Shown here: positions 3,187 to 33,424 of the stretch, piece by piece | How the letters are laid out: each line of letters begins with the position of its first letter | Numbering within the stretch: position 1 is the stretch's first letter | The notes under the pieces: generated by a model | The model's database searches: none | What the model saw: the letters and a program-made list of their open reading frames with translations, nothing else | What the model was told of the DNA's origin: nothing | Assembly (NCBI GenBank): GCA_019873725.1 | Contig: JAIOAS010000011.1 | Location: 2,158-37,201 of the forward strand | Source of the DNA: Chloroflexota bacterium | GTDB taxonomy: Bacteria; Chloroflexota; Anaerolineae; B4-G1; SLSP01 | Direction of reading: 5' to 3' | DNA length: 35,044 bases | Translations under genes and position numbers: made by a program

Positions 3187-3339
3187 GGGTGCATTTCAGA
3201 ATGGGGGCGACTTTTCTTAAATTGCACCGCAGAGCACGCAGTGTCCGCAGAGTTGCCAGAAATTTCTCTGCGTTCTCAGCGAACTCTGCGGTTAAATCAA
3301 ACGCTTATCTGGCTTTTGCCCCCGAATTGAAATGCACCC
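3187..3339 (+). mobile_element. MITE-like element, copy 1 (153 bp)
   Basis: The element starts GGGTGCATTTCA and ends TGAAATGCACCC. The inverted ends match at 18 of 22 positions (12 perfect outer bases, then an inner GGGGGC match). It is flanked by a direct repeat GGAAGCT (3180-3186 and 3340-3346), a likely target duplication. Inside, CGCAGAG motifs appear in both orientations and can pair into a hairpin. By my count it matches the copy at 32111 at 144 of 153 positions, with equal length. There is no coding capacity, so it would need a transposase supplied in trans. It lies between the divergent promoters of the lipoprotein and the ABC exporter. Confidence 0.85.
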
Positions 3340-3404: not shown

Positions 3405-3422
3405 ACCCCTGATCCAACAAGA

Positions 3423-3534
3423 GACTATCTGACAAAAAACTATCCGACTAAAATTATCTGATCAAAGACTATCTGACTAAGGACTACCCGACTAAAGACT
3501 ACCCGACTAAAGACTATCTGACTACCTAAGGACT
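3423..3534 (+). repeat. GACTA tandem array in the leader of the ABC exporter
   Basis: An array of about fourteen GACTA-type units, partly degenerate at the 5' end. The clean 3' part has a 15-bp higher period made of an 8-mer and a 7-mer, such as GACTATCT GACTAAA or GACTACCC GACTAAA. The Shine-Dalgarno AAGGA (3528-3532) is embedded in the last units, 7 bases before the ATG at 3540. Confidence 0.9.
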
Positions 3535-17089: not shown

Positions 17090-17119
17090 GACTAACGACT
17101 AAAGACTAAGCGACTATTT
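17090..17119 (+). repeat. GACTA array in the leader of the second hsp20 gene
   Basis: Four units, GACTAAC GACTAAA GACTAAGC GACTATTT, running directly into AAGGAGG (17120-17126). Confidence 0.85.
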
Positions 17120-17132
17120 AAGGAGGTCTCTT

Positions 17133-17626: not shown

Positions 17627-17696
17627 GACTATTGGAATACGTGACGATTGAACTGTCTGACTATTGGACTATCTGACTAATGACTACCGACTATCG
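17627..17696 (+). repeat. GACTA array in the leader of the third hsp20 gene
   Basis: Degenerate first units, then GACTATTG GACTATCT GACTAAT GACTACC GACTATCG, ending 8 bases before AAGGAGG (17705-17711). Confidence 0.85.
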
Positions 17697-17717
17697 GAAC
17701 ATTGAAGGAGGTGGACT

Positions 17718-32030: not shown

Positions 32031-32064
32031 AGTCAAGTAGTCGTTAGTCAGGTAGTCTATAGTC
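32031..32064 (-). repeat. GACTA array in the leader of the smaller kinase gene
   Basis: Read on the minus strand: GACTATA GACTACCT GACTAAC GACTACTT GACT, ending 8 bases before the AGGAGG at 32022-32017. Confidence 0.85.
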
Positions 32065-32110
32065 AAATTTTCGCGCATTGACAACAAATTGCAACAAGGT
32101 CAATCCTGCC

Positions 32111-32263
32111 GGGTGCATTTCAGAATAGGGGCGACTTTTCTTAAATTGCACCGCAGAGCACGCAGCGTCCGCAGAGTTACTGGAAATTTCTCCGCGCTCT
32201 CAGCGAACTCTGCGGTTAAATAAGACGCTTATCTGGCTTTTGCCCCCGAATTGAAATGCACCC
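32111..32263 (-). mobile_element. MITE-like element, copy 2 (153 bp), inside the deaminase gene end
   Basis: Same length as copy 1 and matching it at about 144 of 153 positions, with the same inverted ends. It is flanked by a 9-bp direct repeat AATCCTGCC (32102-32110 and 32264-32272). Its right 35 bp are translated as the last 11 codons and stop of the deaminase gene. It also fills most of the gap before the kinase gene. Confidence 0.9.
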
Positions 32264-33260
32264 AATCCTGCCAGGCCGGATCGGCGCAGAAGGCGGCGCT
32301 CAGGCGTTCCTTCTGTGCTTCAGGCTGCCAGGAAGCGCGAATCCCGTTCAGAATGAGCATCCGAATGTCATCACGGGAGAAGCCCAACACCTGCTCAAGC
32401 AGCATGAATTCTTCCGCGAGTGTATTGCCGAACATCCTGGGATCATCGGTATTTATTGTTACGAGGATACCGCGCTCAAAGTAGCAACGCACCGGATGTT
32501 TATCCAGCGAAGAGACGACGCCCGTGCGCACATTGGAGAGTGGGCACATCTCCACCGGGATGGCGTGTGCCGCGAGATAATCGAGCAGCGCCGGGTCTTC
32601 TGCCGCGCGCGTCCCGTGTCCGATGCGTTCGGCGTGCAGTGCGTGGAGGGCGCCCCAGATGCTCGCTGCGCCGGCCGCTTCTCCGGCATGGGCGGTGGTG
32701 TGGAAGCCCAGCGCGCGAGCCTGCGCGTACACGTCCGCGAAAGGCTCCGGCGGATACAGGTGCTCCGACCCTCCAATGCCCACGCCGATGACGCCCTGAT
32801 CGCGCACTTCAACCACGTCGGCGAGGGTGCGTGCCGCGGTCTCCGGGCCATAATCACGCCCAAAGTCGACGATGAGGAAAATATCGATGTCGGGAACGCG
32901 GGTTAGACCGGCGCGGATGGCCTCAGCCAACCGTTGCACGCACAGGCCATGGTGAGCGAAATCCACCGGTGAGAAAAAGACTTCTGCATAGCGAATATTC
33001 TGCTGCGCCAGATCGCGGGCCACAGCCTCGGCAATGAAGGTGAAGTCTTCGTATTCACGCAAAAACTGGTTCTTCCAGACCCACGTGTCGATAAAGTGGG
33101 GGAAGTCGCGGAAGACGAATTTCTGTTTCAACGCTTCCAGGTCAGGCAGGTCAGGAGCGCCGCCGTATTTCTGGACAAGGTTCCACAGGGCGGGATAGGG
33201 AATTGCACCCTCAAGATGCAGGTGCAGTTCAACTTTAGGGAGACGGTCAAACCAGTTCAT
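32229..33260 (-). CDS. Adenosine/adenine deaminase family enzyme with MITE-derived C-terminus
   Basis: 343 residues from the ATG at 33260; an in-frame ATG at 33284 would add eight residues (MTTRLTPT) encoded by the GACTA array, and neither start has a visible Shine-Dalgarno site. Metal and catalytic motifs of the adenosine deaminase family are intact: HLHLEGAIP with the HxH pair, TTAHAGEA with the catalytic Glu, ERIGHGTRA, EMCPLSNVRTG and INTDDPRMFG with the Asp pair. It should deaminate adenosine or a related purine in the cytoplasm; family members also use adenine or modified nucleosides, so the substrate is open. The final 11 residues and stop come from the inserted MITE. Without the element and one target copy the frame would end at once with TGA after AWQD. 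Confidence 0.93.
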   Translation of the reverse strand: MNWFDRLPKVELHLHLEGAIPYPALWNLVQKYGGAPDLPDLEALKQKFVFRDFPHFIDTWVWKNQFLREYEDFTFIAEAVARDLAQQNIRYAEVFFSPVDFAHHGLCVQRLAEAIRAGLTRVPDIDIFLIVDFGRDYGPETAARTLADVVEVRDQGVIGVGIGGSEHLYPPEPFADVYAQARALGFHTTAHAGEAAGAASIWGALHALHAERIGHGTRAAEDPALLDYLAAHAIPVEMCPLSNVRTGVVSSLDKHPVRCYFERGILVTINTDDPRMFGNTLAEEFMLLEQVLGFSRDDIRMLILNGIRASWQPEAQKERLSAAFCADPAWQDWVHFNSGAKAR

Positions 33261-33269
33261 CGTTGGTGT

Positions 33270-33410
33270 TAGTCGGGTAGTCATTAGTCAGATAGTCCGG
33301 TAGTCGTTAGTCGGGTAGTCAGTAGTCAGATAGTCGGGTAGGCGTTAGGCGGGTAGTCAGTAGTCAGATAGTCGGGTAGGCGTTAGGCGGGTAGGTGTTA
33401 GTGGGATAGG
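33270..33410 (-). repeat. GACTA array with 38-bp duplication, leader of the deaminase gene
   Basis: The longest array of the family. On the minus strand it reads GACTATCT GACTAAT GACTACCC GACTAAC and so on, decaying to CCTAACGCCTACC variants farther from the gene. On the plus strand a 38-bp unit (33313-33350) is repeated exactly at 33351-33388. Confidence 0.9.
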
Positions 33411-33424
33411 TGTGCGGTGAGCAG

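Follow-up and report, generated by a model that had tools for sequence, protein, structure and literature searches.

Extension of proteins by the ends of MITEs is already known from other bacteria. In Coxiella burnetii Dugway, QMITE2 supplies about 33 residues to enhC, and MITEs also overlap the 3' ends of other genes there (PMC5896051). In Erwinia carotovora, insertion of RU-1 removed the stop codon of the amidase gene ECA3499 and added about 34 residues (PMC2759123), while the RPEs of Rickettsia, repeats of roughly 150 bp that encode a conserved peptide, insert in frame within genes (reviewed in PMC10969869). The locus considered here lies in a 35,044-nucleotide stretch of a Chloroflexota genome (the window), in which an adenosine deaminase gene ends inside a MITE. 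As in enhC, the C-terminal residues are provided by a MITE lying in frame at the gene's 3' end; however, the enhC extension of about 33 residues meets its stop immediately past the element, whereas the deaminase gains 11 residues and stops within it, and the deaminase tail, unlike that of enhC, recurs on an unrelated gene. The likeness to ECA3499 is that a small mobile repeat took the normal stop, that the extension lies past the conserved domain, and that the orthologues are shorter, although RU-1 is an unrelated element with a TA duplication and a longer added stretch. With the RPEs, our element shares the property of giving a repeat-encoded peptide to unrelated proteins, many of them in the RPE case, but RPEs sit within genes, whereas the Chloroflexota MITE forms terminal tails only and has no copy inside a gene. 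A search limited to open-licence papers found no report of such a tail for Chloroflexota. The Chloroflexota case is new, and its evidence is unusually clear: both the state before and the state after the insertion are visible, which makes the locus a clean example of a mobile element shifting the end of a protein.

The deaminase gene and its displaced stop codon

The relevant features, in window coordinates, are the following.

32229–33260, minus strand: adenosine deaminase gene (predicted), 343 codons from the ATG at 33260, in a reading frame open from 33284; its final 11 codons are newly acquired
32229–32264, minus strand: the new codons W V H F N S G A K A R and TAA, read from the MITE and without counterpart in the two orthologues (L032, L033)
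32111–32263, no strand assigned: MITE copy 2, 153 bp, with ends GGGTGCATTTCA...TGAAATGCACCC and no internal transposase gene
32102–32110, no strand assigned: target-site duplication, copy 1, AATCCTGCC, perfect over 9 bp
32264–32272, no strand assigned: target-site duplication, copy 2, AATCCTGCC, perfect over 9 bp
32100–32102, minus strand: original TGA stop, beyond the element, displaced and untranslated, matching the stop position of the G003 orthologue (GAT TGA)
3187–3339, no strand assigned: MITE copy 1 of the window, between divergent genes, with the duplication GGAAGCT

Domain and equivalog scores agree in predicting an adenosine deaminase: the Pfam A_deaminase match (3.1e-79) covers residues 8–321, and the equivalog model TIGR01430 scores 276.5 bits, above its cut-off of 216.55. 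The gene shows coding-type codon use. The tail begins only at residue 333, and as the domain ends before it, the enzyme is probably unbroken by the addition. Single-sequence structure prediction of the protein was not successful (mean pLDDT 42.6), and a search of viral contigs for relatives of the deaminase found none. At the other end of the gene, an array of degenerate repeats abuts the start codon and provides an upstream in-frame ATG at 33284 (MTTRLTPT-).

The original prediction held that the last codons of the deaminase, WVHFNSGAKAR and TAA, are read from the right end of MITE copy 2, and that taking out the element with one copy of the duplication restores GAT TGA after AWQD. Both are borne out at the nucleotide level. 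The insertion point falls within the TGA stop codon (T|GA), and the Trp codon TGG consists of a T derived from the duplication and the GG of the element. From there the frame continues to the present stop, a TAA at 32231–32229 inside the element. With the flanks joined, the empty site reads GCC TGG CAG GAT TGA, that is, AWQD followed by a stop. The further statement that the stop had been replaced needs refining: the old stop was displaced, the TGA surviving at 32102–32100 beyond the element. Since no stop intervenes, the tail is predicted to be translated, unless the transcript is cut.

Deaminase orthologues were sought in 60 related genomes. The alignment of C-termini that the original prediction had proposed places the stop of the same-genus orthologues at the predicted codon: that of G003 (85% identical) ends in DPAWKD* with GAT TGA, and that of G002 (81% identical) in DPAWQA*. 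Both proteins are without the tail and both genes without the element, contrary to the outcome that would have refuted the original prediction, and the two genomes keep the gene order of LRR protein, deaminase, 437-codon kinase-like protein and 850-codon kinase-like protein. More distant members of the deaminase family have unrelated end residues and stop slightly earlier or later. Because the same-genus orthologues have neither tail nor element, these comparisons indicate that the WVHFNSGAKAR tail is new in the source lineage and arrived with the element.

The MITE family and its placement relative to genes

In the source genome (5.27 Mb in 415 contigs) the element occurs in 58 near-full copies and in truncated ones as well. 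Most copies are 153 bp long, and an exact duplication of 7–9 bp flanks 33 of the 58. The inverted ends match perfectly over 12 bp and imperfectly beyond that; patterns built on the two ends gave 78 and 61 matches, against 0 for a reversed control pattern. Given this copy number, the duplications and the empty control, the element is not a chance repeat, and as a short sequence without a transposase gene, with terminal inverted repeats, a target-site duplication and dispersed copies, it has the features of a MITE. Copy 2 folds into a single, near full-length hairpin (-69.3 kcal/mol, z = -6.25). An Rfam search of the window returned no match. No promoter-like site was found, and the single terminator-like match (minus strand) occurs at a rate near chance expectation. 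Related elements with similar ends and other interiors are found in G002, G001 and other genera of the family (G019, for example), and among named genomes the exact matches to the right end come from Caldilineaceae or other Chloroflexota MAGs, which makes that lineage the very probable source of the window.

Two contigs each carry a pair of copies arranged head to tail (C48, L134 2501-2815; C165, L166 2501-2814). Each pair is separated only by an apparent shared target duplication, an exact 8 bp (GCAGGTAC) in C165 and of the TTGACAA(A)C type in C48, which suggests tandem duplication of the element. The window also contains intergenic arrays of a degenerate short repeat (TAGTCGGGTAGTCATTAGTCAGA) in both orientations, at 33262-33412, 32031-32073, 3407-3526, 17096-17124 and 17656-17709.

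Codon-model gene calls around all MITE copies show no called gene interrupted and no gene start overlapped, while four 3' ends are overlapped. From coding density, about 45 of the 58 copies would be expected in genes, against none that interrupts one. Copies seemed to favour divergent gaps over convergent ones, but with gap lengths taken into account the difference was not significant (p = 0.32). Insertions at the extreme 3' end appear to be tolerated, possibly as they change or add only a handful of residues beyond the folded domain; those inside genes may be purged or may never occur, through selection or through target choice. Open reading frames that end in or cross the element on three contigs (C45, with 829 codons, C272 and C290) looked antisense or spurious, disappeared when the gene caller was retrained and were not counted. 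In one of the four genes overlapped at the 3' end (C279, L182 1070-1531), only the last base of the stop appears to come from a degenerate copy (TA|G).

Tails on other proteins and competing explanations

Three of the four overlapped 3' ends belong to genes with orthologues, namely the deaminase, a regulator on contig C102 and a TPR protein on C76. The original prediction had also proposed that other sites could acquire this tail, and the C102 regulator provides such a case: it ends in ECVENA-GVHFNSGAKAR, with the tail and frame of the deaminase, and its empty-site reading ECVENAENC* agrees with the end of its tailless orthologues, ECVENVENR*. The C76 protein ends in RRILLSGAFQFGGKS, its tail SGAFQFGGKS being another frame of the element, and its orthologues, without the tail, end in RRMLPGLTQVT* or RLKLNTG*; the duplication at this site is imperfect, so that the pre-insertion reading is uncertain. 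A parallel case comes from the sister species G002, whose glycogen debranching enzyme ends in ANMGTGTHFNLGTALAVAGL (GTHFNLGTALAVAGL), read in the deaminase's frame from a diverged member of the family, whereas orthologues without the tail stop a few residues past the shared ...VVL. The duplication is again imperfect, and a second element adjoins. We name the C102 regulator NB-ARC/TPR, and the G002 protein a debranching enzyme, from a reading of their sequences and not from a family search. Note here that on the G002 contig (C6, L197 2381-2541) two related elements stand almost back to back 3' of the debranching gene, which ends in the first.

In 35 of the 58 copies the right end simply reads VHFNSGAKAR, so the recurrence of the tail follows from the element rather than from selection. 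The same short peptide stands on two unrelated proteins of one genome, a caution for annotators that a C-terminal peptide shared by unrelated proteins may be the end of a transposon. The tail-bearing genes form a ready set for measuring how neutral such tails are.

We hold with high confidence that insertion of a MITE in the stop codon gave the deaminase its 11-codon tail and that such insertions have recurred elsewhere; the tail is probably near-neutral. A non-autonomous element whose inverted ends are 12 bp long, with an 8–9 bp target duplication, inserted between the T and the GA of the stop. In the resulting phase its right end offers ten open codons, so that 11 codons would be read before the element's own TAA. 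Independent events of the same type gave tails to other genes of the source genome and in the sister species.

An alternative is that the main effect of the insertion lies in the RNA, with the hairpin altering processing or stability of the mRNA and the tail being incidental. We consider this unlikely, though the hairpin may act on the downstream kinase: the near full-length hairpin lies between co-directional genes of conserved order, and such a mechanism was raised for EnhC by the Coxiella authors (PMC5896051). However, any MITE is expected to form a hairpin, and an RNA effect is compatible with the tail also being translated. It is improbable that the tail has been co-opted, with selection keeping it for a change in how stable the deaminase is, where it localises or what it interacts with. 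The shared peptide within one genome and the similar one on the sister-species enzyme could be taken in its favour, but as the commonest right-end reading the peptide needs no selection to recur, and it lies outside the conserved domain. The likeliest reading of the deaminase tail is a near-neutral hitch-hiker, not an adaptation. We give still less credence to the idea that the right end itself has been shaped so that every phase yields a short tail and a stop, rendering 3' insertions benign, in which case the VHFN-type tail would be conserved in its own right and not a by-product. That the deaminase is a decaying pseudogene, with the insertion as one of its lesions, is hardly credible, given an intact 343-codon frame, a full domain match above the curated cut-off and codon use of the coding type. 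A tail ancestral to the deaminase, its coincidence with the element boundary being due to chance, can be dismissed, as the orthologues of the same genus end in AWKD* and AWQA* and the tail sequence is an element end found at dozens of unrelated places.

The search for a mobilising transposase

The GGG ends and the 8–9 bp duplications gave a lead to ISKra4, which we took as the presumptive source family, but the NF033572 profile had no match in the source genome. Three DDE_Tnp_1 matches were considered as autonomous partners, and none has the MITE ends; nor could any transposase-bearing pair be recognised among the solitary ends that might have been parts of full-length elements. An autonomous partner with the same ends was thus not found among the 415 contigs of the source genome for the two transposase families searched. 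In DYLA01000068.1 (L120 524-640), reading the beginning of an FAD-binding protein (VVIIGAGPAGLAAAYELI) on the minus strand leads directly into a solitary end of a related element; the gene is probably truncated, and the end a remnant.
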